Shown piece after piece: positions 2,547 through 52,883 of a stretch of DNA of 64,000 nucleotides (the stretch's first letter is position 1; every line of letters starts with the position of its first letter). The stretch lies in assembly GCF_000226115.1 (NCBI RefSeq), contig NC_016460.1:4464001-4528000 (forward strand), read 5' to 3'. The notes beneath the pieces were generated by a model, which searched no databases, was not told where the DNA came from, and saw only the letters and a program-made list of their open reading frames with translations. Both the position numbers and the translations under genes were made by a program. Source of the DNA: Thermothielavioides terrestris NRRL 8126 (taxonomy: Eukaryota > Ascomycota > Sordariomycetes > Sordariales > Chaetomiaceae).

Positions 2547-4250
2547 TCTTCAAGTAAGCATTCAATAGTGGGTGCATGATGGTACCTCGATGGGGATTTG
2601 AACGAAAGATATTGTAGCATGTGAACGGCTGACCAGTTCGCATGGTCCGCGGGCCGTGACTCAGAGCCTCGTCCTCCTTATATTCGCCAAATGGCTCTTG
2701 TTCTTCTGTCCCGCATTATGCTCTCGCCTTGACTGGCTGGCTGCCTGTAGGCCAACCAACGCGAGGCAGACGGCTGCGTCCTTGGCCCAGAAAACGAGCC
2801 GCGAATCAGGGAGGCATACACGGCTTCCCCCGAGGCAAACAGCGACGGCTGCGCTGAGGCCCACCGCCCGTTCGGGGCGGTGCATATGAGAAGAGAGACT
2901 TGGAAAAAAAAAAAAAAAAAAAAATGATTGGGCCACCACGTGGCTCATACGTGGCGTGCATATGGTTGCCCGGCTGTGAGTCGAGCCAGTTATCTCACTA
3001 TTCAAATCGACTCACCAGCATGCAGGCATGTAGGGAATGTCCGAGTTGATAGGTACTTCCCCATAGTTACACAAACTTCCGACAGCTGCCAGGTCGAGCA
3101 CCGATGCCTCCTCCATGCCCGGAAACCAGTCTAGTTGAACAAGTGTCCTGGTACCTGTTTCAAGCCGAGGACAGCAGCATGCTGGATACAGCCTCCAGTT
3201 CGCTCGAGTGAGGAACCCTGTCAAAGAACTGCTGGATAGAGTTGTCGGCCTTGTCGGCCTCTTCCAAGCCCGCAACCTAGGCCGTGTCTATCAGAGTTAG
3301 TAATGCAAGTATCCCAGACAACGGCAGGCCGGGACGGTCTCTCAGTGGTCCGGCCGGACAACGGCCAGCGCTCCTCGGTGTGGACACCCCGTATGTGTCG
3401 TAAGCATGTCCATGGCCAGAGTTGTAGCTCTCCTCGTGACATATACCTTCGTGAGACCTTCGTGCACACAAAAGTCAGCCAATAGCCAGCATGGAGTACA
3501 CTGTTAGAATTTGGGTTATTCTGGTGTGTTCCTCGTCATATGCTCTGGATATGACAGCCATTGAACCATTTGTCCGGTCTTAGCCTCCCCCCGCTTTGTC
3601 GCCCGCCACATACCGACCTCCAAAAACCAAGAACGTCTCGAGGCATGAGCTAATAACACCCTGCCCGTTTGATTCAATAGTTCAAAGGTCCTTGAGCCGT
3701 TGGTTGATAGTTGGGTAACAGCTTGACCCTCGAGCTGCTCGAAGTGCCACCCGCTCCTACCCTCTGAGCCGTATCACCACCGCTCCTGCCTTTTTAAACC
3801 GCTGAAACTTCGGAGCTACCTACTCGTGAAGAATAAGCGGCTCATTGCTCGTAAGCCAGAGGAAGACGGCTTGCCGAAGTGAGCTAATAACACCCCGCTG
3901 TGGGATGCAGGCACAGGAAGACAACTGCATAGATGATGCTACTGATGATGATGGAGATGGTGGGGCAGAGATGGTGGTGGAGAGGTGGGTGGATGGATGA
4001 ACCCGAGGTCGGTGGGCCAGGTCACGTGGGCCCCGAATCCTCATACACCCCGCTTATGGAGTTCGGCCTTGCGCGGCTAACACAGAGCCCCCCTACGAGC
4101 TCCTATATGCGAAGTCAATGTGCCGCAATCCAACATTGCTATTCCACGATTGGCTCATGACGCTTTTATTCTTTCCCTAGCCAACGCACTGAAGCAGACG
4201 TGTAGCTCCCTGTCCAGGCTAATCCATAGCACCAAGCCTCAATCCCCGCC
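2547..4250. other. intergenic region
   Basis: No supported gene. Short open frames on both strands show no family signature. It holds an A tract near 2905-2923, a direct repeat TGAGCTAATAACACCC near 3646 and 3879, and the 145-bp dispersed element described separately. Confidence 0.6.
3890..4054 (-). mobile_element. 145-bp non-autonomous element, intergenic copy, with 10-bp target duplication
   Basis: Positions 3900-4044 are the reverse complement of most of intron 1 of the alcohol dehydrogenase gene (33025-33169); both copies are 145 bp. Shared landmarks are CCCACCGACCTC, TCCACCACCATCTCTGCCC and CTGTGCCTGCATCCCAC. The copy is flanked by a perfect direct repeat ACACCCCGCT at 3890-3899 and 4045-4054, as expected of a target-site duplication. 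The ends are weak inverted repeats (ATGAGG.. against GTGGGATG..). There is no coding capacity. It is a MITE-like or introner-like element; the family is not named. Confidence 0.7.
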
Positions 4251-7519: not shown

Positions 7520-7600
<81 letters not shown>

Positions 7601-13593: not shown

Positions 13594-16320
13594 ATGTCGC
13601 TCTTTGGCACCTCGCCGCCTGGCGGCTCGCCCGGCGGCGGCGCACAGTCGAGCCACTTCGCCAACAGCAGGCCGTCCCTGTTCGAGGACGAGCCGCCCAT
13701 GACGCGCTCAAGCACCTCGGCGCTTTTCGCCGACGACGACGGCGGCGCCGGCGGCTCCGACTCGCCCTGGGCCATGCCGACGCCGCGCAAGCAGAAGAGC
13801 CCCGCCGACCTCATCCGCAGCCTGCTCCCCGCCTCCGACGTGCCGGAGAGCTACGTCGAGGCCTTCGACGCCGTCGCCCGCGATCACGGCAGCGGCGGCC
13901 GCATCACCCTCGGCGGAGTGGCGAGGACGCTCGCTGCCGCCAAGCTCGGTGCCGATGCGCAGGCGCGCATCATGGGCATCGTTGCGCCCGGCGGTGGTGG
14001 TGGTGGTGGCGGCGGCGGCGATGAGGAGACGCTGCTGGACAGGAACCAATTCAATGTGCTGTTGGCCTTGATTGGCTTGGCGCAGGAAGGGGAGGCGGTG
14101 AGTCTCGATGGGGTAGATGAGCGACGCCGAAGTGAGTGCTTGGCTGCACAGTACATACACCCATGCCTCCACGCCTCGACAAAACCACGCATTCGCGCAT
14201 GCGCATTTCATCACGCCGTCTTATCTTATCTACGCCACCCGCGCAACTGCTCCATCTGCTTCGTGCTCATCGGCGTGCTGGAGTGGGCCCTGCTAACGTG
14301 GTTGCTTCGCTGCCCCAGATCTGCCCCAGCCCGAGCTGCACGGCATCATCGAGAGAGCGCCGGCCGTGCCGCACCTCGAGCAGCTCGCCGCGAAACCCCC
14401 GCAGCGACCCGTCACTCCCCCGAAACCCGACCCACCTTCTCCAAGACGACACCGCACTCTCAGGAAGCCGTCGATGGACTATCCGGAGGACCCGTGGAAC
14501 ACGCCTGACGTGCACAAGAACCACAACCATCCTCCCGGGCCACCGCGGCCCAATGGTGTCGAAGCGCCGGCTCCGGCCGAGCCCACGAACGGGAATAATG
14601 CCTACGGAACCAGCCCGCAGTCGTCAACGCTACCCCGCCAAACAACTTCGGATTACACCACCAGCGCGCCGCCATCAGGCGCTGGTTCAGTAGTGGAGAG
14701 CGCCAGCGCATGGGGCGGCTTCTTCGACAACAATGCACGTTCCGCCGCCGGCGCTTTCCATGAACAACCAGCTCCGAACGCGGTGGCAGCGCCTTTCGGC
14801 GGGATCGGCGACAGCGGCCCCGCGCGGGGTCCAGGCGCTGTCCACCCGCCCGCGCCGGCAGCACCGCCCAACAGGACCATTGGCGGTGGGCGGGCCGGGG
14901 CGCCGGTGGAGGAGACTGTTGTGGTCACGTTGATGCCGGAAAAGGAGGGCATGTTCCTGTTCCAACACCACAATTACGAGGTCACCAGTTCGAGGAGGGG
15001 AAGCAAGGTCATTCGGCGCTACAGCGACTTTGTCTGGCTGCTCGATTGCTTGCACAAGCGGTACCCGTTCAGGGTCCTGCCGCTGCTGCCGCCCAAGAGA
15101 GTCGCCGGTGAGTAGTGCACTACAAAGGGCACCAGCTTGCGAACGAGTGTTTGAGTGAATATTCAGCACGGCTTGTCGCTAACACCTGCTAGTGAACGGC
15201 AACCATCTGTCCAACGACGGCGCCTTTATCGAGAAGCGGCGGCGCGGTCTGGCCAGGTTTCTCAATGCGCTTGTTCGGCATCCCGTGCTCAGTCAGGAAC
15301 AGCTGGTCGTCATGTTCCTGACTGTACCAACTGTCAGCAATTTTCCTGCCACCACCACCACCACCACCACGACGATTTACCCAGCCAGTACTGACACACA
15401 TATCCTTCATCCCTAGGAACTTGCCGTGTGGCGCAAGCAAGCGACCTTCTCCGTCCAGGACGAGTTCACCGGCCGGCCGCTGCCCCCGGGTCTCGAGGAC
15501 TCGCTCCCACCCTCCCTCGAAGAGCTCTTCAGCCGCACGCGGGCCGGCGTCAAGCGCAGCGCCGAGCTGTACATCACGATCTGCAACGTGATGGACCGGC
15601 TGGTCAAGCGGTCCGAGGGGGTGGCGGCGGACCACGCGCGGATCGCGCTCTCGCTCATCTCGCTGACCGAGGCGAGCGCGGACACGTACGCGACCGACAC
15701 CAACGACGTGCCGCTGCTCAACGACGGGCTGCAGGCCATGAGCCGGCACCTGCGGACGGCGCAGAGCCTGATGGAGGACGAGGCGCGCGCCTGGGACGAG
15801 GGCGTGCTGGAGGACCTCAAGCGCCAGCGCGACGCGCTCGTCAGCCTGCGCGACCTCTTCGACCGCCGCGAGCGGCTCGACCGCGACAACATCCCCGCTC
15901 TCGAGAAGCGCATCGCCGCCAACGAGGCCAAGCTCGCCTCCTTGCGGGCCAAGCCCGAGGGGATGGTGAAGCCGGGCGAGATCGAGAAGGTCGTCGAGGC
16001 GATCATCAAGGTGGGCTTGCTACCCATGGTCCCTCCCGCTTCCCCCTCTCCAATGTCGCCGGCATTCTCTTCTTGTTATTATTACTAACCCTACCTACAA
16101 CCCACAACAGGACAAGGAGTCGATCGTCAACCAGCACAACCGGTCCGTCTTCGTGCGCGAGTGCCTGCGTGATGAGCTCATCTACTTCCAGCACACGCAG
16201 TACAGCGTCTCGCGCTGGAACCAGGACTGGGCGCAGGAGCGCGTCAAGTACGCCGAGATGCTGGCCGACAACTGGCGCCGCCTGCTGGACGGGCTCGAGG
16301 GGATGCCGCTTGGGGAGTAA
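13594..16320 (+). CDS. MVP1: sorting nexin Mvp1 (SNX8-type, PX-BAR)
   Basis: Five exons: join(13594..14131,14319..15107,15193..15332,15417..16010,16111..16320), 756 aa. The N-terminus (MSLFGTSPPGG) is Gly/Ser rich, then comes an EH-like segment (DLIRSLLPASDVPESYVEAF) and a poly-Gly run. A Pro-rich linker precedes the PX domain, which starts about residue 375 (ETVVVTLMPEKEGMFLFQHH) with the phosphoinositide-binding RRYSDFVWLLDCL. After intron 3 the protein continues ELAVWRKQATFSVQDEFTG and a long BAR-like helical region ending DWAQERVKYAEMLADNWRRL. Intron 3 has the weaker donor GTCAGC and a CCA microsatellite, but the join PT|ELAVW agrees with the family. Role: membrane binding and retrograde sorting at endosomes. 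Confidence 0.92.
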
Positions 16321-18266
16321 TAGCTATCGAGCTGGCGGTCGTCTTGTTTTTGTTGTCTGACGAGGGGGCCGAGGGTCCTCGTTTATGATGATACCGCGTA
16401 CCGCATCAGTTTGCATCATCGGCAGGCTGTTCTTCATTTTTTTTTTCTTCTACTCTTTTCCATTGTCTGCTCAGATGATGTTGCCCTTGGCATGCAAGCC
16501 CGAGGGGCATGCCGTATACAACAGACCTAGGTAGCAGGGGGTGCTCGAGGCTGAGAAGAAGATACCCGGTGTTAAAGATTCATCCGCTTCGCAGCCCGGT
16601 TCTCTCCGAGCGCATTTGCTGTCAAGATGCCCCCCGCGCTGCCAAGACCGCCCGCCCCGGCCCACTGCCCCTTCTGGCCTGAGCTGCAACCCTGAATGGG
16701 CGCTCGCGTTTTCAGCCTCGCTGCGGCCCCCCTGCTGGCTTCCCGCGCTGGGCTCCATGATGTGGGTGAAATTTCTCCGGATCGCCGGTGCCCGACTTTT
16801 GAGGATTCTGATTCTGCCGCCTTCAATTCCCTTCACAGGGCACTGCTGACTACACAAGTGTAACGTTAACCTGCACAATTTTCCGGACATACGCGCGTCT
16901 CCGGAGTAGGCCCTGGACCCATTTGCCGACTCGGCCGCCCGCGCCCCGCGATCCGATTCGGCCGCATGAGCCGATACCCTGCCCTGCAACCCGGGCCATC
17001 CATCCAAAAACAGAGATTCCCCCTGTGAATTCGCCGAATCTCGTGACGTCAATTTGAAGGGAACGCCTCTAACTACCGGGCGCAGCCTGTGCAACCACAT
17101 TGCGTGCTGTGATATCTCAGCCCGCTCCGTGTGCCTCTCCTCTTCTCTTCCAATCGGCAACTCTCCCGCAAGCCTCTCGAGTGGCCGCATCGCTGCCTGT
17201 CCCCAGTGCCGGCTCGGCAGCCCCCAACTTCCGCCCATCATAACCTCCACCGCCCGCCGGACGAAATAGGGAAGCTTGCCGACCCGGTCGATCCAGCTGG
17301 CTGACCAACGCGACGCCGGACAACGTGCTTTCTTCCCTTTTGTCCCGTCGTCCCGTTGCCAGGCGGCGGCGCGCGCTCCGTGCCGCTGCTCCATCGCACC
17401 GCACCGAATGGCGAGGCCGCCGATGGGGGTGGCCTTTCGGCCCGATACCGATGGGCCTACGTTGCGATCCTGGCCTTCGCATAACACGCGCTGACTGTTG
17501 GACGGAACGAAATGCAACGGTGCCGGTCTGGCGACGACCCGGCAGAGTCGGGGAGTGCTTTTTTTTAGCAGGTGACTGTGTGGTTTGTCGCAGGTCTTAT
17601 CCTGGACGGAGTACACTATGGACGGATCCGTATTTTATTTCCCCCCTGGGTCCCCTTCCCGACCCTCCCGTTTCCCCCACGCCCCGTTCCAAGCGGATGG
17701 ATACTGGCGGTGGCTCCAGAACGGGAAACACCGGCTGCTTATACGGCACGCATTCGAGAAGGTCGAGATTGGCATTGCGACACCATGTCTTAGTCCATAA
17801 TTGTACCCAAGCTCCCATCTTGCCGCGGCTCCCCCAAACACGCCCTCGCTTTTTTCTCTCCTCTGCTTCTCCCTAGTAAGAGGGAAACGAGCCATCTGGC
17901 TCGTTTTCGTTTTTTCCAAACAGGGCCGCAGTGGAGCGCGCTTGCCTAAAGTATACGTTCACAAGCACATGAACGGGTGATCAAACCTTCCACTTCCGTC
18001 CGGTCAGGTACCCTGTGTCGTTTGCTCCTTCCATTTCTCTCCCATGCTCGCACCAAGCATGATAAGTGCGCCCCGCCGCCATGTTCCGCCGCTTCCTGAA
18101 TTCCTGTCTCCAAAAGAGACCAGAGCGACCGCCACCTTCCAAAAATCCGCACACACAAGCGTCGACCGAGACAGCCAACAGTGACGCAACTGCAGTGTCT
18201 TTCTCACCACCACCAGAGCCATCTCACACGAATTTGGCAACGGAAGACCCACCAGATCGGACCACC
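16321..18266. other. long intergenic region
   Basis: A 381-codon minus-strand open frame (16471-17616) runs here but shows no domain, is Arg/Gly/Ser rich in the way random GC-rich frames are, and is not listed as a gene. I see nothing else apart from the DCN1 leader at the right end. Confidence 0.5.
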
Positions 18267-19407
18267 ATGCCGAGGCTTGGCGGCGTAACGAAGGGAAAGG
18301 TGAAGTCAACCGGTCAGCCGGGTGCGGCCGCCAAATCCCGGAAGCCATCCTCCCGAAGACCCCAGCAGCACAAGGCCGCCGGGTCCCGGGAAGAGGACCG
18401 CCTCCTCGCGCAGCTCAACCAGATGTTCGACGAGCTCCAGGCCGGTACGCTGCTCTCTTTTCTCCTCCTCATTCCCGCCCACCGGCCGCTCACTCGATCG
18501 CTGACGCATATCTCCAGACGGTGGTGGCCGTGCCGAGACGGCCAACAGCAGCAATAGCAAACCCCGAAGTGACGCAGACGAACTCGGCTACGACGCCATC
18601 ATGAGCTACCTCGCGCGGCTGGGCATCCAGCCCGAGCACCGCGGCGCGCTCGTGCTGTTGGACATTGTGCGCGCCGACTCGCCCTTCGCCATCAGCCGCG
18701 CGGGATTCGTCGGCGGCTGGGCGCAGGCCATGCGCAGCACCGCCGAGCTGCTCCCACAGCAACCAGCGCACGACAACACCGACACCCCCGCTATGGCCGA
18801 CACCGACTCGGCTGCCGCCGCAGACGACGCCCGCTGGGCGCAGCAGCGCGCGCTGGTGCGCGCCCGCGTCGACCGCCTGGCCGCCGACCCGGCCTACTTC
18901 GCGCACGTGTACGAGCTGGCCTTCCGACTGGGCCGCGGCGACGCGCCGGCCCACGCCCACGCCGCGCTGCCGATGGACGTTGCTGTTGGGTTTTGGGAGG
19001 CGCTGTACGGCTATAGCAGCAGCAGCGGTGGCGGTAGCAGTAGCGGCGGAGGCGTTGATGGTGGCAACGGTGGGGGTTTTGACTTCTTTGCGGCCTGGCG
19101 GGCATTTCTCGGGGAGCAGTTCGGTGTCGGCGGCGCGGAGGGCGACGGTAATCCGGAGGGTAATGATAACGGCGGCGGACAACCCCGGTATAAGGGGGTC
19201 GTGACGAGGGATCTGTGGAACCAGACGCGGCGGTTCGCGGCCAAGACCACGGAGGACGGCACGCTCGGCTTCTGGTCCGAGGACCAGGCCTGGCCGCGGC
19301 TCATCGACGAGTTTGTTGTCTGGTGCCGCGACACGGGAGTCGTTGCGGCCCCGGAGGGCAGGGGCAAGGGGGAGGGGCAGCACGAGGAGGAGGTTGACGA
19401 TTACTGA
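18267..19407 (+). CDS. DCN1: defective-in-cullin-neddylation protein (Dcn1-like)
   Basis: Two exons: join(18267..18444,18518..19407), 355 aa. The start ACCACCATGCC has a good context; an upstream in-frame Met at 18081 is possible. The basic N-terminus (PRLGGVTKGKVKSTG) is followed by a 73-nt intron (GTACGC..CTCCAG). The second exon carries the PONY/DCUN1 domain: YDAIMSYLARLGIQPEH, ISRAGFVGGWAQAM, a middle AYFAHVYELAFRLGR, and the C-terminal YKGVVTRDLWNQTRRFA and WPRLIDEFVVWCR, the cullin-binding segment. Two glycine/serine or Gly/Asn insertions split the domain near residues 190-215 and 235-255. Expected role: scaffold E3 for attaching Nedd8/Rub1 to cullins. The C-terminus is acidic (EEEVDDY). 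Confidence 0.9.
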
Positions 19408-20437
19408 TGGGGCTGTGGTGGAGAAGACGTGTCTGTTTTGTTGCCACTGTGGCTGGCCCTGGCATGATTTATCTTGCGAGGTGAACCAAGCAGGCCCCAG
19501 GGATAGGGGCGAGGTCTACATATTTCTTTTGGAGCGACTCTTTTGGGCGTGGCGGGACGGAGTCTGGCACACATAAACTTGCATGGGCTCTGCTTCGGCG
19601 GCGGGAATGGGCGGTGCATTTGCTGGGCTGTCTGGGTGTTTACAGGAGCTACACGGTAGACCAGCGAGAGGCTGCGGAAACGGGGGTACGGATTACACTT
19701 GCGCAACAGTTAGTTTGGGTCTGATCCGGCGTGCTCTGTTGCCGCCGGCGGAATGCTACAGCCCGTTAGCATGACAGCATGTTGTTCAGGGGCGCAGTGG
19801 TGCAATGGAAACGCCCGATCAACAAGACATGGTCGCCTTGAGCTCAGCTGCCTCGCGTTTCGCAGCTCATAACTTGAGGCTCTGGGGGAGACAAAACGGC
19901 CCCGAGAACATGGGGGACGGCTTGCGTCTTCTCCCCAGCATGTGTGACAGCCCTTCGGGGTGCCGGCCCGGAGTTGGGCCCATTGCTGTTGTCCAAGTCG
20001 GCAGAACTTGCTTTTGATGTGCATGCGAGAGCTCGGATTACCGTGTGATGCAGCGTATGGTATTCCGTCGACGCCGAGGCCTCGTTCAAAGCCCGGCAAG
20101 CACCATCTCGGTTTAAGCAGGTCTATGGTATGTAATGCACACATACAAGCCATGTATCGTACAACCCTCGCGCCTACTCGTGGTGGTGGCGAGCAGGCTT
20201 CCCCTCCGGCCCCTCAAGCATGGCCTCGCGGTCCCTGACCCATGATTTCCTCCAGTCGCTCTTCTAAGCCCGGCTCAGCTCAGCTGGCGAAGAGCGCCGT
20301 CCCGCCGCTTGTCCTGTATCTATCCCTTATCATATCGAGTGCTGAGCACTCCCAAGTCCCCAAATCAAAATCCCGCCCAGCCGTCGGCCCATATGTATTG
20401 CGCACCCCGATCCGCCCCAAGCAATCAATCCACCACC
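19408..20437. other. convergent intergenic region
   Basis: This lies between the 3' ends of DCN1 (plus) and the bS6m gene (minus). No gene, tRNA or repeat could be supported. Confidence 0.5.
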
Positions 20438-20981
20438 TCACTCCATCGACCGCCACTTGACAGGGCCGAACTTGCTGAGGGTCTCGAGCTTGCCGTCGCC
20501 GAGCTTGACGCCGCCGGCGCGCAGCACGCGGGGGTCGACATCGAGGGCGTCGCGCACCGCCTTGTGCGTGGCAATGCTGGCGTCGTAGCGCAGCACGAAG
20601 TAGTGGCCCCGCGAGTGCCGCTTCTGGTTGTGCGAGATGGTGCGCGGCAGGTGGAAGACGCCCCAGTTGGCCACGTCGCGGATCACGCCGCCCTGGCGCA
20701 GGATGATCTGGCCCGCCGTGAGGACGATCCTGTGGTGGGAGCAAGGAAAAAAGTGGTCGGTTAGATCCATGGTGTCGTCACATCTTGACATGTGGACGGG
20801 GCGGGGGATGTATATGGAGAAGGGCGAAAAAAGACGCACTCTTTCACCTCGGACAGCTTGCCCACGCGGACCTGCATCGCGTTCATCGTACCCGGCGTGT
20901 TAGCGTGCGTGCGATGTAGACAGTCAGACAGAACGGGGAACAGCAGGAATTACGCACAATGCCAATCGTCTCGTACAGCAT
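20438..20981 (-). CDS. MRP17: mitochondrial small-subunit ribosomal protein bS6m
   Basis: Three exons: complement(join(20438..20729,20840..20871,20958..20981)), 115 aa. Exon 1 is only eight codons (MLYETIGI) and exon 2 only 32 nt (VRVGKLSEVKE); together they rebuild the conserved S6 N-terminus, and exon 3 continues IVLTAGQIILRQGGVIRDVA and NWGVFHLPRTI. Donors are GTGCGT in both introns, and acceptors are GATGCAG and CCACAG. GHYFVLRYDAS and LGDGKLETLSKFGPVKW complete the protein. It is a mitoribosomal small-subunit protein, Mrp17 in yeast. No cleavable presequence is obvious, which is usual for this short family. The exon-2 size makes automatic gene finders likely to miss it. Confidence 0.92.
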
Positions 20982-21853
20982 CTTGGTGTGGTCGGCAACG
21001 ATGCGGGTGTTCGTGCCGTTGCTGCCGCGTAGCGAGGAGAAGTCGTTCGAGGTCGTCTTGCTACACTTGACAATCGCAACAGGCCGGGGAACGCCGGCGC
21101 GATAGAAGCCGGAGCCCGCCCTGGAAATTTTGGCGACAATGTTCCGGGATTCTGCCGGACTCCGCGAGTTGAGGTCCACACCGCCCGCCTTTCTCGGTCC
21201 CTTGCCAAGACTCCATGACTGCCCCTGAGGGGCGCCCCTGCTCAGCCTCTGGAAGAGTGCCAGGCAAACCGCAGCGCTCGTGAACGTGGAATTGACGAAC
21301 TGAGTCTTGCCACCTGGGAAACCAGCTCACAACCCAGAAAGAGCAATGAATGGCACATCGCATTAACTGGAGTAATATCGGTGCGATCCTTACTAATTAC
21401 ACCAGACTACAAAGATGGTACATACTAACTCTGCGCGAGAAATAGAAAAAGAAAAAAAAATAGACTGCTGCCTCAGCTCCCCTGAAATCTTGCACATCCG
21501 GTCGCCCGAGTCTGATGTCAAGGGAAAAAGACAAACAACCCCTTTCGCTTCTGCAATCTCTCTTTGAGAACCCCGACGCAAAGCAGGCAACGGAAACCGT
21601 ACGTGCTGCTGACAAGCGGGCTCCAGTGTCTTCCCAACGCCGGACCCCCTTCCACCTTGATAATAACCATGCCACAAAAGGAGACGAATACTGGCGGAAA
21701 CAAAACACAACAAAAAGAAAAAGGCTGTGTGCAATGTCAATGCCCAACGTTGCTGGACTTGGACCCGTCCATCTGCATGGGCTGGCCTCCCCGCATCCCG
21801 TGTGGCGTGGCCAGTCGTTCTAATCCGATGCCCGAGCAAGCAAGCCGGGCTAG
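20982..21853. other. intergenic region
   Basis: This holds the bS6m promoter and the 3' side of the DUF3716 gene. Minus-strand open frames reading into it from the DUF3716 gene's last introns are intron read-through. No separate gene is supported. Confidence 0.5.
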
Positions 21854-24800
21854 TTAATTCGAGTCGCCGGCGGCGAGCGTCTCCGGGTTCATCGAATTCC
21901 ATTTGAGGTCGATCCACTCGCTGCATCGCCCGAACCCCCTCGTCAGCAACCGCATTGAATTCAGGGGGGGCAAAACGGACCACCACCAGAACGCTCCGAC
22001 AGGTTCCAGACCGAGAAAAATCCAAAAAATTGAGGGTAGGGTGAAAAGGGAGAAAAAAAAAAAAAAAAAAAATTGAAACTGACCTGGTCTTCTCAACCAC
22101 CCAAACCTGCTTCCGCCGCAGGAAGCTCAGGAACCGCCGCTTGGTGCGCTCGCGCTTGAACTGCGCCATGATGTCGCCGCGCGGGTGCAGGTCGCGCCCG
22201 TCGCGGCCGTCCTTGTGCACGATGGCCACCCGGGTGCTGCCCCGGGCGAAGGCGACCTGCAGGATGTCGGACAGCTTGAGGTGGAAGTTGTACGGCTCCT
22301 TGAAGACGGACCACTTGACCGGCTTGACCGACCGCAGCACCTGATGCTCGATCAGGTCCGGGTCCTCCGGGTCCACCCAGTGCCAGTACTGCGTCACGCC
22401 CACGTTGCTGGCGAACGTGCGTGTCTTGACCTGGTGCAGCCGCCTGTCCCGGTTTAAAAAGGTCAGTTATCTCTCTACTCACTTTCGATCGGGACGTTTT
22501 GGGGGGGTGGCTGCTTGGGCGCAAAGAAGCAGTTCCCCCGTGAAAGGGGGGTAGCTAAAAAGCAACTACACGCCGTGAATGACAAGAGAAGGAACCACAC
22601 GTGGTCTGAACGTACCAGTCGATCGGGTGTAGCCTGTCACGGCTGATCGAGTCGGTCGACGTGTAGCCGTCGTAGGCGAGCTTTTCTTCCATGGCGCGCT
22701 CCTGCGCTGCCGTCCACTGCGACGACGGATGATCGGTTGACTTCCGCGAATTCCTGTACATCGCCGACACGTCCCAGGCGAGGTCTCCTTCGGTCGCGCG
22801 CTCCTGCGCCGCTGCCGTTGACCGTGACGGCGCCGGGCTGGGGAGCACAATGCGCGGCTTCTTCTGCACCGCCGACGTCAGCTCGCCGCCGGACTGCCCC
22901 TGGCTTGTCGTAATCTTGATCTTCTTAGGCTTGGGTTGGGGCGTCAACCCTGCAGCTGGCGCTCCTGCCAGTGCTGCCGATGACCCTGACGACGCCTTAA
23001 TCTTGCTCGGCGTTGACTGAGGCGTCGCGTGCGGCTCCTTGCGCTTCAGCGACCGCGGCGCCGACTTCTTCCCACTGCTCTTGGGGTTTGCCGAGTCGTC
23101 CTTCTTCGTCGCCCCCGCAGGAGGGCGGCCGACGCGGGCGAAACCTTTCTTGGCACGGAGCTGCACCAACTTGCCGTCGTGGTAAGCCTTTTCGAGCCAG
23201 GCGGCCACGCTGAACTTGTCGCCTCGCTCTAAGGAGACCTCGTGTAGCCGGTGACGTAGCCACTCAGATGGTTTAATGTCAAGGTCCATCTTGGGAAGCT
23301 CCTCAAGTAAGAGCTGCGCTAGACGGTAGAGGGTGTCGTAGTGGATCAGTCTAGGGGTAATATACTCCTTGGCGACTAGCTGGTACGGGTGCAGATCACC
23401 CTCCTGCAGGAACTTGAGGATAGTTCGGCCTCGCTTCGCGTCCCGATTAGCCAGGTGCTTGTCCGGGTGCGTAGAGCCTGACTGTTCGAGCTGCTCGTAC
23501 TTGGCCTGGTACTTCTGGCGGATTGGCTCCACGAGCTTCTCGATTGGCTCCCAGTCTGGCTCCCAGTACGGGTGGTCTGGCGTGATTTTGACAAGGGGTA
23601 CACCGCGCATGAGCGGAGGATCTGTGAACACGACGCCGTCGTCGCGAAGGCAGAGCACCTCCTTGTTGATTTCCGGCAGCGGTTCGTCCGCTTGGAAAGA
23701 GACATTGGAAGGGGTCGACGGTTGAGCGGCGGGGGTTTTTCGTGTTGTCGGGAGCGATTTGCGCGCTTTCTTGGTTTCCTTGGCACCTTCGCGGTCCTGG
23801 CGAGCCGTGACGTCCGCTTGGATGCCGCCTCCCAATTCCCTCGACGGTGTGCCGTTGATGGGAGTGAAGTTGCCGCTCACTGCGCGTGCCTTGTCGGGAG
23901 ACTTTCCCGGAGTCTCGGCATGCGACTTTGCTGGGTGGCTATGGCGGGAAGTGGGCTGCCGTTGCAAGGCGGCGCCATAGCACCGGCGCTTGTTCCACTC
24001 GCAGTTGCCGCAACGGCTGAATTCGGGATCGTCAACCATCACGCAACCCTGGAAGAAGCCGTGGTTGACAGAGCAGTCCGCGCAGGGCCGCTCTTGCAGC
24101 TGCCCCGTAGCCTGGATGAACAGGCTCAAGAGTTTGAAGGCCCTCACGTCGACACTCTGAGGGCGGGGGACGGCGTTGAGGTCGTCGATGGTGAACTTCC
24201 GATTGGCGCGGATTTGGACTGGCCGTTGGACGTCGCGGAATCCAAGGCGGTCAAAGTAGTAGTTGTGCCCATCAGGGGGTTTCACCCGGCCTATCAAGTC
24301 GCCCGAGCCGCCCACGACCTCAATATCGCGCAACGCAACGTTAGGGGTCTCCGGGCTTGACGGGTGGCTTGGCTCTTTGGTGAAAGAGATGGGGACATCC
24401 AGGTCAGGAGTCGTGTTGCGGGAGCTCAGCTCGGACGATGACGAGGGAGACGCCCGTACGACGAGAGCAGTCGGCTCAACACGCTCGGGCGGCCCATTGT
24501 CATTGTTCAGATCGCCCGCCTCCGGTTCCTCGGCATCCGGCATCTCGGTATCCCCCTCTGCAGGGTTTGAAGTCTGCGTGCCAGGAGCATCAACGCCGCG
24601 CGATTCCGCCTTCTGTGCCAAGACGGGCTGCTGGGTGGCCTCGGGAGGGTTAGCTGCATGGTCGCCCGGTGGTGCTTGGCTAAGCGCCTCCGCTTGCCCA
24701 TCCGCTTGCCCGTCCGCTTGCCCGTCCGCTTGCCCGTCCGCTTGCCCATCAACTTGCCCATCGGCTTGCCCATCAGCTTGCCGCGATTCGACATCGGGTA

Positions 24801-25989
24801 CGCGATCGATCCCCGGCCCTCTCACGTCCTGAGGAAATTCGGGCCCTCCAATCACCGAGATGCCGTCGATCTTATCGTCGTCATCCATAGGCGCCATAGG
24901 TGCCACTGGGGCCACAGGTGTCACGGGTGTCACAGGCGCCACAGGTGCTGCAGGTGCCTCAGGTGCCGCAACCTCGGGCTCCGTGACTGGTGGCTGCTCT
25001 CCTTCTTGAGTGGACTCCTGAGCAGCCGTTGTGTCCGCCTCCGCGGGCTGAGATCCTTCCGCCTCGGGCTCTCGCGGCGGAAGTTGTTGCGCTTGCTCGT
25101 CGACAGCAGGCGGTTCGGGAGCGCCCTCATCGACAGCCTCATCCCGTGGTCGCAGGTCTTCGGCCGCCTTGTCCGCCGCCTGGGGCTCAGGCCCTTGGCG
25201 ATCATCTGCTGTTTCAGCGCTGGCCTTCTCGATGTCCTCAACCGCAACCGCAGGTTCAGCAATAGCGGTGTCCTCAACCGCAGGCTCAGCAATAGGTTCC
25301 TCCTGTGCTGGCTCATTGGCGGGCTGCCCTTCCTCCAGCTCAGCAGGGCGCTCACGCGCGCCTTCTCCGTTGTGGTGGTCCTCGGCGACCTCCCCAACAA
25401 CCGGGGCCTGCTCGTTATCGATAGGCTGCACTTCACAAACCGCCTTGGGCTCCATCCTATCCTCTGCCACCTCAGCTCCTTCTTGCCTACGAGGCTGCCC
25501 ATTACCACTAGCAGCAGGTACAGTAGTAGCAGGGACAGTAGTAGGAGCAGCAGCATGATTTGACTTCCCTACCGCGGCCCCCTCCCCTTGCTCCCCCTCC
25601 TCGCTGGCTAGATTCTGATACGCCAGCCCGCCCCGGCGGAAGGTGCGGAACCATAGGCGGCGCTCCTCGATCTCCCGGGCGCGCTCGCGGCGGCGCTCCT
25701 CGCGGATGGCCTCGACGTCACGCTCAAGCTTGGTGAGCTCGGCGCGGCCGGCCTCGTACTCGTCGCGCAGGGCCTCCAGGCGGCGCACCAGCTCGCGCTG
25801 GGCGATATAGTTCTCGATGAGGCGGGCCTTGAGCGCGCGGCTACGCGCGTTGAAGTCGGCCTCCAGCGTCGCGTCCTCCTGCTCGTGGTGCCGTTGCATC
25901 GACGTGAAGTAATTGCGCTCGATCTCGTCCCACGGGTCCTCGTCGGCGGCGACCGCTGCGGCTGTCGACGGCGTCGTCGCCGTCGCCAT
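21854..25989 (-). CDS. large DUF3716 zinc-finger-like protein with coiled coil and repeat-rich linker
   Basis: Three exons: complement(join(21854..21920,22084..22443,22616..25989)), 1266 aa from MATATTPSTAAAV. The N-terminal ~30-135 is a charged coiled coil (LEALRDEYEAGRAELTKLER). Residues ~140-600 are acidic, Pro/Glu/Ala rich and contain two DNA-encoded repeats: VTPVAPVAP (9 bp) and DGQA (12 bp, about 8 copies at 24690-24790). At ~634-670 lies the DUF3716 Cys motif: CADC..F..CVMVDD, then CGNCEWNKRRC. A C-terminal region follows (PYQLVAKEYITPRLIHYDTL; basic segments KKSAPRSLKRKEP, PKPKKIKIT). Intron 1 (172 nt) turns HPIDW into HPIDWRLHQVKTRTFASN; intron 2 (163 nt, with an internal T run) gives VVEKTSEWIDLKWNSMN. 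It is likely nuclear and DNA- or chromatin-associated; the function is unknown. Confidence 0.78.
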
Positions 25990-31730: not shown

Positions 31731-32197
31731 CAGCGGTCCGTGCGCCCCTACCAAAACCTCGCAAGGAGCATCACCACACCCCCAGCAAACATGTCGCCAC
31801 AAGAATCGCTTCAAATTGACGACGTTGCGAGTGCGATTAAAGATGTTGGAAAATGTAGATTGATTAAAACGTTGACCTCTTAAGAAAGCTTGAAAATGCT
31901 AGCCCCTAAGTATAGGAGATACTCGAGATTTATTAAGAGGTTATATAACATTTGTCTTATCGATAAGCTATCTTATCGATAAGATAATTTATCGATAAGA
32001 TGCCCCTTTCTTTCTTTGAATCCGTCTTTGCAAATGCCTTCCCCTCCCCCTGGTGAGCAACGTAGCAGTTAACCGTTTGGATCCTTTGAGCCTTTGGATC
32101 TGTCATCAATTCCTATCGCGATTCCTGTAGCAACACGTGAGCTTGGGGGTGTGGTGATGCTCCTTGCGAGGTTTTGGTGGGGGCGCACGGACCGCTG
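31731..32197. mobile_element. 467-bp fold-back element with ~95-bp inverted repeats
   Basis: Positions 31731-~31826 and the reverse complement of ~32103-32197 are nearly identical at the ends (CAGCGGTCCGTGCGCC, then ACCAAAACCTCGCAAGGAGC and ATCACCACACCCCC) and diverge inward, partly by transitions. The interior is AT-rich with three TTATCGATAA palindromes. In the left arm a short frame MSPQESLQIDDVASAIKDVG ends at a TAA after 30 codons and might be the start of a lost transposase, but this is speculative. The flanks share only CA. It is most likely a MITE or inverted 5' ends of a DNA transposon. Confidence 0.65.
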
Positions 32198-32834: not shown

Positions 32835-34436
32835 ATGTCTCTCCCGCAGACCTTCAGGAGGGCCGTCTTCACCTCGGTCGGATCCCGCCTCACCCTCGAG
32901 GATGCCCCCCTGAAAATGCCTGGAGCGAATGAGTTGCTCGTGAAGGTCGAGGCCTGCGGCGTGTGCCATTCGGACATCGCGGTGCAGAACAATGCCTTTG
33001 GAGCAGGTTTGTACGTGGTGTCTTGTGTGAGGTTTGGGGGACCACATGACCACGTGGCCCACCGACCTCGAGTTCACCCATCCACCCACCCCTCCACCAC
33101 CATCTCTGCCCACGATCATCACCATCATCATACATGCCATCACTCTTTTCCTGTGCCTGCATCCCACACGTCTTTGGGAGGGCATTGACCGTGGGTCGTC
33201 GTACTGACGAGGAGCGTTGCGCGCAGTCCCTTCACCCCGGGCCACGAGATCATCGGCCGTGTTGCTGCGGTAGGCGAGGGCGTGACGGCCTGGAAGGTGG
33301 GACAACGAGTTGGAGGGGGATGGCATGGTGGCCACGATGGTGAGTCCCACTGTCCTCATACGAGGCACAAGTAGGAGGGGGATCAATTTAGCCTCGCTGA
33401 CGCCGTGAACCTTGCACAGGGACCTGCCGCGCCTGCAAGAAGGGTCTCTTCCTGATGTGCGACAACGAGGCCACCAACGGCGCGACCAGGAACGGCGGAT
33501 GTAAGTCCATGATGAACCATTGCTCCGTTGCTCCCACAGCCGGCATCCCTGAGCGCTGACCGCCCGAGACAGACGCGGAATACGTCCTCATCCGGTCCGA
33601 GGCTGCCGTGCGGATTCCCGAGGACGTCGACGCGGCCAAATACGCGCCCCTGCTGTGCGCCGGCGTGACCCTGTTCAACTCGATGCGGCGCATGGACGTC
33701 AGCCCCGGCGAGACCGTGGCCGTGCAGGGGCTGGGCGGGCTCGGCCACCTGGGCATCCAGTACGCCAAGAGCTTCGGGTTCCGCGTCGTGGCGCTCTCAC
33801 GTGGCGCCGACAAGGAGCAGTTCGCGCGCCAGCTGGGCGCCCACGAGTACATCGACACGACCAAGGTCGACGTTGGTGAGGCGCTCCAGGCCCTCGGCGG
33901 CGCCGCGCTCATCGTCTCGACTGCCCCCAACGCGGAGCAGCTGTCCAAGCTACTGACTGGCCTGGGTCCCAACGGGAAGCTGCTAAGCCTGGCTAGTAAG
34001 CGCAGAGCGTGTTTCCTTCGTGCTTCGCCTTGAAGCGTGACGGGCTGACGCTGCGGCAAACAGTCGCGGGAGATGTGACCTTCAACACCTACCTGATGGT
34101 CAGTTGCCCTTGCTGAACACCGAGGCCTCGTCCGGGAATGAAACGCGCGGTCTTTTCTGACTCTTTTTCCGTCGCAGGTTAAGAAGGGCCTGTCGGTCCA
34201 CGCATGGCCAGCTGGAGACGCAACCGACATCGAGGAGACCATCCAGTTCTCGAAGCTGCAGGACGTCCAGTGCTTGGTCCAGACCTATCCTCTCGAGAAA
34301 GCGAACGAGGCTTACGGTAAGATGATGATTCGTTCCGGCGATAACCCTGTCCCCTAGCAGCCACTGACACCAAGTCCCCGCAGAGGCGATGCTCAACGGG
34401 ACGGTGCGCTTCAGAGCCGTCATCACCATGGAGTAG
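32835..34436 (+). CDS. zinc-dependent alcohol dehydrogenase (MDR family)
   Basis: Seven exons: join(32835..33010,33227..33339,33420..33500,33573..33995,34064..34098,34178..34316,34384..34436), 339 aa. Catalytic-zinc motifs are CGVCHSDI and PFTPGHEIIGRV, with a third ligand in LLCAGVT. The structural-zinc loop reads HDGTCRACKKGLFLMC, so the first of the four usual cysteines is Asp. The Rossmann motif GLGGLGHLGIQYAKSFG binds NAD(P), and LSRGADKEQFARQLGAHEYI follows. The C-terminal exons give VAGDVTFNTYLM, KKGLSVHAWPAGDATDIEET and NGTVRFRAVITME. Intron 1 is 216 nt because it contains a 145-bp mobile element; the other introns are 55-85 nt. Likely a cytosolic NADP-dependent aldehyde/alcohol oxidoreductase; the substrate is unknown. 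Confidence 0.9.
33020..33174 (+). mobile_element. 145-bp element inside ADH intron 1
   Basis: Positions 33025-33169 (GTGTGAGG..CATCCCACAC) match, in inverse orientation, the intergenic copy at 3900-4044. The direct repeat GTCTT sits on both sides (33020-33024 and 33170-33174). The ends are short inverted repeats (GTGTGAGG and, read from the other end, GTGTGGGATG). Without the element and one GTCTT the intron would be 66 nt, like its neighbours, and would keep donor GTACGT, branch site TACTGAC and acceptor GCGCAG, none of which is supplied by the element. Confidence 0.7.
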
Positions 34437-44480: not shown

Positions 44481-45937
44481 CAGGGAAGAGAGAGGAAAAG
44501 TAGGAGTGGCTGCGCAGGACGGGGTCACCGACTCGGGGCCAGCTTGTTGAATGATGGCGGCGGGGTTTGTTGCGAGGCCAGGCAGGTAGGCAAGGGAGGC
44601 AAGTGCCGGGGCTGTCTCGGTGCTGCTGCGAGGTTCAGGTTCGAGCGAGTTTCGGCGATGCGCGCACTGCAGACGGCGGACGAGCTGCCGCGTAACTTGC
44701 TGGCACCTTCCCGACTTCAAAAGCAGCGCAGGCTCCAGCAGTCACGAGGACCGGATGGCCCGCCTGGCTCCTTCCTTCACCTGCCTGTGCCCTCCGCGCA
44801 ACGCACAGGGATACTTCAAGAAGGTGCAAGCCGTCGTGAACCGCGGGTTCTTTCAACATCCCTCGTTTGCCAGCGACCAGCAACCTCAGGCTCATCACAA
44901 GCTGGATGGACGTCAGCTGCCCACCACGAATGCCCAGCAGCGTCCTCGAAGCAACGCCACGACTCGTAGTTATCCCGTCTTCTGTGCGTCAAGCTCCGGG
45001 AATGCAGTCGTAGGAGGACAAAGAGCTATCGACAGCTTGTCTCGGAGCGGGGCCGTCGAGGAAGCAGAGCTCGGGGATGCGACGTGTGCAGGCCGTCGTC
45101 CTTTTCGCTTTGTCAAGCTGCCGTAGGCAGGCTTCCTCAGTCCTCGAGGTCGTTGTCAGAAGTTAAGAGAAAGAGGGAGACGAGAATCAGTGTGGTCTCC
45201 GCCCGGGACCCATCACCCCAGGCAAGCAGCGAGAGGTGGCCACGAGCGGTCACGGAGGGGGAAGTCGAGGAGAGATCGGATCGGTGAGGTCACGAATGGA
45301 TCGGTGGAGTGAAGAGGGTCTGGCAGGGCAGTTGGGAGGCAGAATACGGGATGGCGAAGGCGATGGGGGGGAGGCGCTGGAGTTGGAGCTGGAGCAGCAA
45401 TAGTGTATTGGACGGGGAGGATGATCCCCATACTGTGGGCAGTGAAAACATCCATAGCAGCGGTGGTCATCCATGTGAAGCAAGTGGTTGCGTAGGTAGG
45501 GTGTGTTGCTGCCGTCTTAGTCCTGGTCGCCGCAAAATGCTGCTAATTTACTTTGTCCCTGGTCGATGTCGTTGTCTGGGTGCGCTGCAAGGGGGGTGCC
45601 CGTGCCGCCACCGGCCCTCGCGTGCTCCGCTAACAAGGACACCAAGCAAAGCTCTGGCGGGGCCCTGTTGGGTACTCCCCGCCGGTATGGAAGTACACTA
45701 CAGTACTCCGTACATTACCGGAGACTGTCGTGTGCAATCAGTGGAGGGACGTGCAGGAATGGGTTGCAGATGACTGGTTGGCTCAGTCCCCCCATGCACC
45801 GAACCGCTCCATGACTGCCCCATCCAGCCAGTCGATTCCTCGCTTAGTTACCATGGCAGCCGTCGCTGGTACATACAAACTCGCTTGCGGTTTAGCCCCG
45901 TTTCTTTTTTATACACAGCAATTCGCGGTTATTCTTA
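44481..45937. other. cyclin promoter and start of the repeat-rich region
   Basis: The segment next to the cyclin probably holds a long 5' leader. Plus-strand frames such as 44620-45126 are shadows without domains. The first hairpin-type motif of the repeat region (ACTCCGTAC) occurs at about 45704. Confidence 0.45.
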
Positions 45938-46318
45938 AAGAGGTCCCGCCAAGACTAATTTCGGAACCTGCCGCTTACAAGTATTTACAAATTGCCGCGA
46001 GGGAGCGGGGTCGCCACGACTTCGAGCAACATCAACAACGAAGAATTGCAAAGACTCGTAGCAGCAACTTCGTGAAACCTCAACCAAATTGAAAAAAAAA
46101 GAAAACGAAGTTAACCCGCACCCTAACCTTGACCCTCACCCTAACCATAACCCTCACCCTAACTAGCGGGGGGCTGGCGCCGCCCCCCGCACCCCCGGCG
46201 AACTAACCCGTGGCTAACCCGTGGCGATAGTGCAAACCCCTTGGCGGTCTTGGCGGGGTACTGACGCTGTAAAAACATTGCCGACAATTGGCCGAAATTA
46301 GTCTTGGCGGGACCTCTT
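45938..46318 (+). mobile_element. TIR element copy A with telomere-like core (381 bp)
   Basis: The ends are perfect inverted repeats of about 26 bp (AAGAGGTCCCGCCAAGACTA and on to TTTCGG; mirror at 46293-46318). Inside, from left: a unique ~130-bp segment, a degenerate telomere-like tract at 46113-46164 (units CCCTAACC, CCCTCACC, CCATAACC), a GC hairpin at 46166-46190 centred on GGCGCC, and a right arm. An 11-bp tandem duplication (TAACCCGTGGC) makes it longer than the other copies. It sits between TA dinucleotides in a CTTAAG context. No functional frame was found. Confidence 0.8.
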
Positions 46319-48276
46319 TAAGATCCAGCCAATTCGCGGCCCACGCCGCCCAGTGCCTTGTCCTCTTTGGAGGGGCTTTTCTTTGCACAGCACCTGGGCA
46401 ACGATTCCTTGCTTTCCGGCCTGCGGATTGGCCGGTTCTCGCCACTCACGGATTCATTTCGCCGCAGCAACACCAAGCATCCTTTCGGGCTCTGGCCCAG
46501 TGGGTCAGTGGATCGTCTTCGCAGTGCGCAAGCAGCTTTGTCGTCAGCATTGCCAAATGCATCTCACTTTCCCTCCAGACGGCAGAGGCAACAATTGCGG
46601 ACAAGGCGCAGGCAGCACCAGCACTGGTGAGGCGCCCTGGATGCGACATGCTCTTTTTTTGCCCTTGCTGCCGAGCAACCTTTGCACAATCCCGCATGAT
46701 GCATGCCGTCCTGACAAATACAGATTACACCCTTCTCCCTCGGGTTTCAGCCCATACTGTGTAGTGTACTTCGTACGGAATACACAGTATCCATCACCTT
46801 AGCCCTCTGCTTCATCCGTCCAGCCACCTCCCTCCTGCAAAGGCTTTGTGTGGTACATACGTTGTCTTTCCGTGCTGTGGTACTGCTAGCGAAAGCCCTG
46901 GAAGCCACTTACCGAGTTTGTGAAGTGGATTGTCCGAGGAAGAACAGTTGATCAAAAAGCTTGCAAGGATCACGGACTGAAGATGTTCTGTAATCCATAG
47001 TGTAGTGTACAAAGTACGGAATACACTAATCACAATCTACCACTGGGTACTTACTGCGTCATGTAGCTCGAAAACGGAGCGGGCAACTTGCTATCCGCAC
47101 CATCGGATTCGTTTGGATTCTTTCCCAAATTGCGCTAAAACCGATGGTTTGGCTGCCTCGTGGGGTTGGATTCGCCCCGTCTCTTTTCCTTGACACTTGA
47201 CACTTGACTCTCCACCACCCATTCCCGCACATGAACGAGCATGGCACGAGTCTAACTACGGATACCTACCTAGGTACCTACCAGGTATTATTCACTTCTC
47301 AGCCCATTGTGGGAATCCGGTCCAGCCAGCCATTTGCCGCTTCGCTACTCGTGTTGTGAAAGACATCCAGCACTTACCGTCCATCCCCTTGCGATGGACG
47401 GGAAGAGAGAGGATGGGGCCGGCTGGCGAACCGCGAAGCGTCTCATTGCTGAGACCTGCTCCATGCGAAAGCCAGGGGAGCCAGTCAGAGGGGTTTTCCT
47501 CATGTTGGAAGTTGCGCCGGTCACCCTCAGCCAGCGGAACCAACCTAACACTGCTGCGGATTTCCTTAGCAGTACGGAGTGCACAGTACGGAAGGACCCC
47601 TTAAACCTCGGCCAGGTACTTACCAGGTATGAATCCGTGCTGAAATATCCAATAGTTTGGACCAGGGCGCGCCACAGCCAGTCCTCCCTGAGCAGTGAGT
47701 GAGTGCAACTTTACTCCTGTGCCTTGTCACAAGGCGCATGATGCGGCGCGAAGGATCGGGTCCGTTTCTGGGCCAGGAATGGCATGATGTTCGCACAGTG
47801 CAGCGTTTCTTTTATTGGAGACTCGCATGGCGGCCGGGGGGCTTGCTCAAACGAAAGCCCCCGGGCCTCCTGGTACGCAAGTCTTCCGTAACACGATGCC
47901 ATATCCATCCTCAGCAAGTGCAATCCCAGCGATCGAGGCCCGGAGGTGCAGCCTCTTTTCTTCCGGATCGGCCTGTCAAGAGCTGCATGCCGTTATAGTG
48001 AAGAGGTGGGAGACACACCCGCCATGTCCGCATCTCCCGTCACCTACCCTTTCGAATGCCAGTACGGATTTCAGACGTACGCGTACGGAATATACTCCAT
48101 ACAAGAACTGCAAATAGCGGACCCCTGCCGGTGGCTTGGGGGAGCAAGCCAAAAGGGCTCGGGCTTGGCGGGAGGACGAGGGCTGTCAGTAACGCAGGGC
48201 GTACTGTGTACGTACACCAATCAGGCGGTGGTTAATCCGGTCCACTCGGGCAAGGGGCCAGTGGGGCTGGAGGTTA
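46319..48276. other. gene-poor spacer with short hairpin motifs
   Basis: No gene is supported. Short inverted motifs are seen at 46755-46790 and 46998-47030, and variants near 47570, 48060-48103 and 48201-48217. Confidence 0.5.
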
Positions 48277-48644
48277 TAGAGGTCCCGCCAAGACTAATTT
48301 CGGCCAATTGTCGGCAATGTTTTTACAGCGTTTTTACGCAACCCCGATCGCCAAGGCGTTTGCTCTATCGCCAAGGGTAGTTCGCCGGGGGTACGAGGGG
48401 CGGCGCCAGCCCCCCGCTAGTTAGGATTCGGGTTAAGGTTAGGATACGGGTTAAGGTTAGGGTGCGGGTTATCTTCCTTTTCTTTTTTTTTCGATTTGGT
48501 TGAGGTTTAGTAAAGTTGTTGCTATGAGTCTTCGCGATTTTACATTGTCGATGTTGCTCTAAGTCGTCGCGGCCCGCTCACCCCGTAGCGATTGTAAATA
48601 CTTGTAAGCGGCAACCTCCGAAATTAGTCTTGGCGGGACCTCTA
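48277..48644 (-). mobile_element. TIR element copy B, inverted (368 bp)
   Basis: The same structure as copy A in the opposite orientation: terminal TAGAGGTCCCGCCAAGACTA and its mirror, GC hairpin about 48395-48417, and telomere-like tract 48419-48470 seen here as GGTTAGGATACGGGTTAAGG-type units. It is flanked by TA in a GGT-TA..TA-ACC context. Small indels against A and C show it is not a recent assembly duplication. Confidence 0.8.
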
Positions 48645-49452
48645 TAACCACGACCCCAGTGGGTGCCAGCGTGGCGGGGCTGACCAAGCTTGCAATGTCC
48701 CTTCCAGCCACAGTAGTGTAATTACCGCGTAGATTTCTGTATCGGTAAGTAAGGTATGTGTAATACATCTTCCGTGCGACCCGTTCTTCCGTCTTCCGTG
48801 CCTCCCTCCGTTCGGGAGAGTTGTTGCATTGATCATCCTGCTGCGGCTTGCTTGTGTAATCGGCTCACTTTGGATGGATGAGGTATCCAATCGCACGGCA
48901 CATACGGATCAAGGCACAGAGTGCTGCGTTGTAAGGTAGTTGGTGCGCCGCCTGCCACGGCCCAGCTGTGAAGCGGGCGGCTGCTTTCAACCATCCTGCT
49001 GCCAGACGGTCACCCGCGACCTGACGGGAACAGGCTGTGTCACGTCAGCCACTCCGTACACTACACTTGTTAGTGTACATTACCTGGCACCTCCCAAAAT
49101 TACGTTAACCCGGTCCCGGTTCTTGCGTTAGTGCAGGTACTTTAGTGTAGGTAGTGCGGAATACGCTCCGGAACACGCACGCTCCAGCCAAGGGATGGTC
49201 GGAGTCAGCAGCCCCGGTCAGCCGCGATCTGTGTCATGTCCCATCCTCATCATCCAGCCCCCTCCAAGCCATGGGATTGAAGCGTCGGGTGGACACTCCA
49301 CTCCAGGAGGAGGGGCAAGGATCCTTGTGATCCCGTGGAAGTCAGGCCAACAATTTTCACGACTCCCCCAGCTTGTCGATAGCTGAGGTCTGATCGTGTT
49401 GCGAGAGAACGGCAAGGGTACCACGTTAGTTACTGTGTACGGAATATCTGGG

Positions 49453-52500: not shown

Positions 52501-52883
52501 CAGCTTATCCGAAAACGAACTGTCTACGAAGGTACCCTACCTCCCTGAGCCAAGGAAGCCTGCTCGCCAACCCACCGTGGGTGACTGGAGCGCGCATACG
52601 GAATACACTACAGCATTACGACGCAACAGACCCCATTGGAACCGCCCTCCCGCGGACCGGACGTTATCACCTGATCCGGCGAGCGCTTCCATATCGCAGT
52701 AGATCCCTTCTCAGGAGACGCAATGCATTGGGCAAAAAAGAAGAGGGACAAACCCAGTTAACTGTATCCCGTACCTAGCTACCAATGCACCCCATTACAC
52801 AGTACATAGCCCTCTGGTAACTTACACACGCTCCGTGCATGACGTCCCCGAGTGCATTCAGGTTGTTGAGTGGGTCGTCGTTA
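48645..52883. other. gene-poor spacer
   Basis: No supported gene in 4.2 kb. Repeated short motifs (TACGGAATACAC, GTGTAGTGTAC and relatives) occur at about 49050-49083, 49138-49170, 49430, 50053, 50116, 50513, 51484, 52592 and 52787. A long poly(A) tract lies in the middle. Confidence 0.5.
49455..49532. repeat. 78-nt poly(A) tract
   Basis: An uninterrupted A run immediately after GTGTACGGAATATCTGGGGC. It has almost the same length as the A tract at 7520-7598, with no homologous flanks noticed. Confidence 0.85.

Follow-up and report, generated by a model that had tools for sequence, protein, structure and literature searches.

The described systems closest to the element reported here are the copia-type retrotransposons. 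PMC5371799 and PMC7773854, in the parts cited here, support priming by tRNA-Met in copia-group elements; the former describes the priming of copia with a half-tRNA and has the Ty5 anticodon-arm paper among its references. For the copia clades of fungi, the LTR length, the target-site duplication and the primer-binding site (PBS) are given in PMC5445492. According to the sections of that paper used here, the GalEa (FunCo8) elements of fungi have LTRs of 138-311 bp, an element size of 5.4-7.0 kb and a 5-bp target-site duplication, and the fungal GalEa elements have no PBS, a conserved hairpin sequence, mostly CTGATCAGT or CTAATTAGT, being found behind the LTR. The same sections describe FunCo1 as widespread in filamentous ascomycetes and as having a classical PBS, which pairs with an internal region of the tRNA. 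Mobile repeats within spliceosomal introns are also known from the introners of fungi. As described in part of PMC9860276, introners are hosted by Pezizomycotina, their families begin at five copies and their splice sites may be supplied by the target.

The locus described here is the first intron of a zinc-type alcohol dehydrogenase (ADH) gene of Thermothielavioides terrestris NRRL 8126, in a window of 64,000 nucleotides (the whole stretch of DNA that was analysed, C4:4464001-4528000), and the searches were extended to the genome, which is 36.9 Mb in six contigs. Joining the seven predicted exons of the gene (Table 1) gives an open frame of 339 aa, having Pfam matches to ADH_N (E 3e-27) and ADH_zinc_N (E 2e-17). 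Upstream of the gene there is a pair of inverted repeats of about 80 bp, 31731-31809 and 32118-32197, with 90% identity, and a 46-bp near-palindrome (31955-32000) is located between the two arms.

The original prediction was made from the window alone, and it described a 145-bp block in ADH intron 1 and a 145-bp inverse copy in intergenic DNA. Both are found, at 33025-33169 and 3900-4044, respectively, and a BLASTN search of the window with 33020-33174 gives one other match, at 4047-3899 on the minus strand (82.2% identity over 152 columns, E 3e-33). The predicted GTCTT direct repeats beside the ADH copy and the perfect 10-bp repeat, ACACCCCGCT, beside the intergenic copy are also present. The intergenic copy lies in a stretch without any ORF of 80 aa or longer. 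That a mobile sequence resides in the ADH intron and has an intergenic sister copy is supported, and five further copies are found across the genome. The suggestion that the block is introner-like or MITE-like is not supported; its sequence is that of an LTR from a copia-type retrotransposon. Very probably, the block is a solo LTR left by a full element that entered a pre-existing intron of about 66 nt and whose interior was lost.

The genome search with the block, proposed together with a count of the hits falling in introns, gives at least seven copies (L001-L007, Table 1) rather than two, and an intron setting is shown for one of the seven, the ADH copy. Genome searches that start from a long stretch of L003, or from L002, L007, L006 and L005, return subsets of the same seven copies. 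A scan with an LTR model of the window and of 28 of 65 loci gives ten rows, which correspond to the seven known copies, and nothing new is found. When the sequence that follows the LTR in L005 is used as the query, the search finds the place of L005 itself and, as a lower bound, one relative of the interior, at C1:3427.9k; no partner LTR for L005 is seen within 27.5 kb. The ADH copy has an identity of only 82-83% with its nearest relatives, and the local BLAST identities of the intergenic copy with L003 and L004 are 97% and 95%. A literature search covering titles and abstract openings gave nothing on the LTR family.

Table 1. Positions of the ADH gene, of the LTR copies with their flanks, and of associated features. 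Plain coordinates refer to the window.
Feature	Position	Strand	Remarks
Zinc-type alcohol dehydrogenase gene	32835..34436	+	7 exons; predicted by a hand-made model
ADH exons	32835-33010, 33227-33339, 33420-33500, 33573-33995, 34064-34098, 34178-34316, 34384-34436	+	
ADH intron 1	33011..33226	+	216 nt, phase 2, GTACGT...TACTGAC...GCGCAG
Left flank repeat GTCTT, likely target-site duplication	33020..33024	+	G (33025) between repeat and LTR TG end
Solo LTR in ADH intron (L001)	33026..33168	+	TGTGAGG...CATCCCACA; 143 bp when aligned to the other copies, 145 bp between the flank repeats (33025-33169)
Right flank repeat GTCTT, likely target-site duplication	33170..33174	+	C (33169) between repeat and LTR CA end
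Flank repeat ACACCCCGCT of intergenic copy	3890..3899	.	last base overlaps LTR
Second solo LTR of the family, intergenic (L002)	3899..4045	-	TATGAGG...CATCCCACA
Flank repeat ACACCCCGCT, other side	4045..4054	.	first base overlaps LTR
LTR copy L003	C3:1034.4k		AT-rich block edge
LTR copy L004	C3:1009.9k		AT-rich block edge
LTR copy L005	C1:3320.6k		AT-rich block edge
LTR copy L006	C1:6576005-6576174 (C1:6576.0k; L023:4505-4674)		on stop codon of G-alpha-like gene; overlaps end of its frame
LTR copy L007	C5:419.2k		GC-rich DNA; 5' part of LTR missing
Divergent G-alpha-like gene	L023:4489-6471	minus	661-residue stop-to-stop frame
Nested insertion in source element	C3rc 6923-25717		18.8 kb, bounded by 247-bp direct repeats

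The ends of the copies are those of LTRs. The 5' ends are TGTGAGG in the ADH copy, TGTAAGG in L005, TATGAGG in L002 and L003, TATAAGG in L004 and CGTGAGG in L006, such that the terminal dinucleotide is TG in two of the six copies, TA (a change of the RIP type) in three and CG in one. At the 3' end, the copies have CATCCCACA or a variant of this sequence, which terminates in CA in L001, L002, L004 and L007 and in TA in L003, L005 and L006. The inverted ends of the LTR (TGTG..CACA) pair over 4-5 bp. The LTRs of L003 and L004 are both 139 bp long and differ at ten positions, all of them transitions, and seven bases near the 3' end are deleted in both of them but in none of the other five copies. 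A private deletion together with transitions only is what is expected for two LTRs copied from one RNA and subsequently decayed. At both outer ends of L003 and L004 the sequence AGTTG is found, a 5-bp target-site duplication, and the AAGAC flank of L006 also fits a 5-bp duplication. The flank repeats are not all 5 bp, being 8-10 bp for the intergenic copy, and the GTCTT repeats of the ADH copy are offset by one base. The GTCTT flanks of the ADH copy and the AAGAC flanks of L006 are reverse complements of each other, which may reflect chance or a target preference.

A candidate primer site is located directly behind the LTR. In L007, this sequence is GGTTATGCGCCCGGC, which agrees at 14 of 15 positions with the complement of the anticodon arm of a candidate initiator tRNA-Met (iMet), the arm being represented by three genome matches to a tRNA pattern. 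When both strands of the window are used as background (127,970 positions), no position reaches 14/15 and one reaches 13/15. The corresponding site of L003 agrees at 12 of 15 positions, its three mismatches all being transitions, and that of L005 at only 9 of 15. Directly before L004 there is a run of six G, which is short as a polypurine tract.

The copies L003 and L004 are direct repeats that bound one AT-rich block, and between them, on the same strand, are an RVT_2 reverse transcriptase (RT) and an RNase H. The copia RT match (PF07727, 80 bits, above the cut-off) is 3.9 kb inside L003. On the sequence evidence, L003, the pol region and L004 are one predicted copia element of about 5.9 kb, which is split by a later insertion; the distance between L003 and L004 is 24.5 kb, and the size of about 5.9 kb depends on this nesting. 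The single-element reading follows from the contiguous alignment of the pol parts on both sides of the nested insertion. The comparison set for this alignment consisted of the 30 best of 96 copia RT matches, of which 17 are near-identical copies of intact families. The RT frame of the source element, with X at the stops, aligns to 29 of these 30 loci. For 27 of these, the match stops at residue 1590-1594, and for the other two it stops at residue 1490. Residues 1590-1594 correspond to the edge of the nested insertion, at C3rc 6923. From the nested insertion to L004, the sequence matches the portion of pol that comes next, as seen for 27 of the 30 loci (E 7e-9 to 7e-4). The two pol parts abut in L046, at 2472 and 2503, and the RNase H end of the pol frame is beside L004. 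Within the nested stretch, a unit of 5.6 kb is present twice, and the stretch has a separate homologue at C1:3.42M, a unit of 7.8 kb with direct repeats of 259 bp; no target-site repeat is seen for the nested element.

In the source element, Pol_BBD is in its expected place before the RT at E 0.06, below the cut-off, and in a Pfam search of the six stop-to-stop pieces of the element it is the single, weak match. The integrase PF00665 has 13 matches in the genome, none of them at C3:1.01-1.03M, where the source element is located. A third LTR just past the RT (C3:1029k) was looked for in a RIP-tolerant scan, which gives nothing above the shuffled controls, as explained by the nesting. LTR-like matches in the 30 copia loci are at background, the best scoring 153 when the shuffled controls reach 160, these loci spanning 1.5 kb on each side of the RT match such that a 5' LTR is out of reach. 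Stop-free copia RTs are also present in the genome, located in long open frames (14 frames of 1799 codons, four of 1519 and one of 817; for example at C1:3360240, C2:6625890 and C5:958356), and many of the 96 matches listed are decayed. At 17 of the 19 stop-free loci, those examined, no LTR of the ADH-block family is found within 1.5 kb of the RT.

The whole nest (C3:1009.9k-1034.5k, 24.5 kb) is AT-rich and RIP-marked. Inside the source element, the GC content is 0.33-0.35 and the TpA/ApT ratio is about 1.5, and the RT match contains 15 stops, ten TAG and five TAA. In the LTRs of this element, the RIP marks are far weaker than in the interior (GC 0.51-0.52, TpA/ApT 0.64-0.69). Short repeats tend to escape RIP. 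The LTR of L005 is more strongly affected (GC 0.43). Given the RIP decay and the 15 stops in the RT match, a functional polyprotein would not be expected from this source copy.

These features also bear on two other ways in which a short repeat can be moved. A MITE, that is, a non-autonomous DNA transposon moved by a transposase, would be in agreement with the small size of the block, its flank repeats and the 8-10 bp repeat of the intergenic copy. This origin is very improbable, because the ends pair over 4-5 bp only, compared with about 10 bp or more in a MITE, because it is contradicted by L003 and L004, which flank an RT-bearing element as direct repeats, and because of the tRNA-complementary site behind the 3' end of the LTR. 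A repeat of MITE-like appearance that is present in the window also looks quite different. This repeat of about 380 bp occurs in three copies, two on the plus and one on the minus strand (45935-46321, 48274-48647 and 52881-53254), has terminal inverted repeats AGAGGTCCCGCCAAGACTAATTTCGG and ends in TTAA, once in TTAT/ATAA; judged by its target site, it is presumably piggyBac-like. A SINE or another small RNA-derived repeat would match the block in its length, about 150 bp. Its probability is close to nil, since the window is without an Rfam match at gathering scores, no tRNA gene is found in a search with bacterial settings, neither end has an A- or T-tail, and the arrangement of L003 and L004 contradicts it.

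The ADH copy is a whole LTR, covering positions 4-160 of the 162 positions of the LTR model, and at both ends it stops within one base of where the LTRs of the other copies end. A BLASTN search with the interior of the source element finds no match beside it. The weight of the flank repeats was estimated from 20,000 random spacings of 145 bp in the window, allowing up to three bases of slack on each side. A flank repeat of at least 5 bp is seen in 2.0% of these spacings and one of at least 8 bp in 0.085%. By these rates, the 10-bp repeat of the intergenic copy, of which eight bases fall beyond the LTR on each side in the alignment, is significant, and the 5-bp repeat of the ADH copy is weak by itself. 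It is therefore conceivable that the ADH copy arrived as a copied fragment of DNA, by gene conversion or as a repair patch, and not by integration followed by LTR-LTR recombination: its repeat is just 5 bp, is separated by one base from each LTR end and would be found by chance in 2% of cases. Such a patch is nevertheless improbable, as both ends of the copy are within one base of the LTR ends, which is not expected of a random patch. The coinciding ends are stronger evidence for a solo LTR in the ADH gene than the GTCTT repeat. For this solo LTR, a full copia element would have integrated into the short ADH intron 1, its interior would then have been lost through recombination between its two LTRs, and the lengthened intron of 216 nt would still be spliced.

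The intron itself is probably older than the insertion. The original prediction that subtraction of the element leaves an intron of 66 nt, having its own donor, branch site and acceptor, is confirmed by joining the flanks: removing 33025-33174 preserves the donor GTACGT, the branch site TACTGAC and the acceptor GCGCAG. The remaining five ADH introns are 80, 72, 68, 79 and 67 nt long, and the leftover 66 nt thus matches the size range of the introns of this gene, which points to a pre-existing intron. The splice sites in use for intron 1 are in the flanks, outside the block, and the sole YAG of this intron is its acceptor. The sense strand of the block, when scanned for splice motifs, has no YAG, no GTRNGT and no CTRAY; a donor-like GTGAG is present at 33027, near its 5' end. 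Without YAG and CTRAY, the block could supply a donor at most. The 143-bp LTR is accommodated in a compact intron, bringing neither an acceptor nor a branch site.

These observations weigh on the possibility that the block has spread by making introns and that ADH intron 1 was born with it, as for an introner. One copy is intronic, flank repeats and the donor-like GTGAG are present, Pezizomycotina are hosts of introners, the family size and the target-supplied splice sites are within what is described for introners, and a degenerate ADH paralogue on C1 (L065, C1:1326230-1326560), which has an in-frame TAA, is intronless at the position of ADH intron 1. Given the description in PMC9860276, copy number or splice-site position alone cannot exclude an introner. 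What excludes it is the combination of the identity of the block as an LTR, the complete residual intron with its branch site and with the length of the other five, and the single copy shown to be intronic, and we consider this origin barely credible. The copies L003-L005 at the edges of AT-rich blocks and the absence of YAG and CTRAY from the block also speak against it. In addition, the ADH paralogue on C5, which is 61% and 66% identical in its two pieces, is interrupted between exons at the same residues; the match coordinates put this gap at roughly 58-76 nt.

A further copy of the LTR, L006, is placed precisely at the stop codon of a gene for a divergent G-alpha-like protein, such that the frame runs on through the LTR. 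This frame matches the Pfam G-alpha subunit with E 1e-78 (profile positions 20-300 of 333), and its best match to PDB sequences has E 2e-56. The genome has 12 G-alpha matches in all, with three other strong places, the rest being weaker. When the flanks are joined without L006, the frame ends in ...FQHAIAAAGL-stop. With L006, the antisense LTR would encode residues 600-656 and five more residues would follow, giving a predicted tail of 62 residues. The flank repeat of L006, AAAGACCG, contains AAGAC. In ordinary G-alpha subunits, the C-terminus contacts the receptor. It is possible, though we hold it only tentatively from the reading frame, that the LTR family has rewritten a signalling protein by adding this predicted 62-residue C-terminal tail to a fourth, divergent G-alpha-like protein. 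If the tail is translated, a solo LTR would have become coding sequence, and it would uncouple or retune the G protein. In this sense, the copy on the stop codon is a case in which the conversion of an LTR into coding DNA can be tested.

When compared with the known systems, the source element is like Ty5 and Drosophila copia in its RVT_2 RT and in having the complement of the iMet anticodon arm directly behind the LTR; it differs from them in being decayed, and the likeness is one of description, not of sequence comparison. It resembles the GalEa elements in its LTR length and element size, which are within their ranges, in its 5-bp target-site duplication, in its CA-3' end and in the 5'-TGT of the ADH and L005 copies. 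It differs from them by the sequence behind the LTR, which in L007 and L003 is GGTTATG... and complementary to tRNA-Met. The PBS of FunCo1, ATTAAGAGTCT (tRNA-Lys), is likewise absent behind the LTR here. Judged by its sequence, the source element agrees with copia generally and not with the primer sites of GalEa or FunCo1. With the introners of fungi, the ADH copy has in common that a mobile repeat is located within a spliceosomal intron, but here the insert does not include the splice signals, an intronic position is shown for one copy of the seven and the insert is a retrotransposon LTR. A single pair of copies in one window is easily mistaken for an introner or a MITE. Clearly, a solo LTR in an intron is of a known type and is ordinary in kind.
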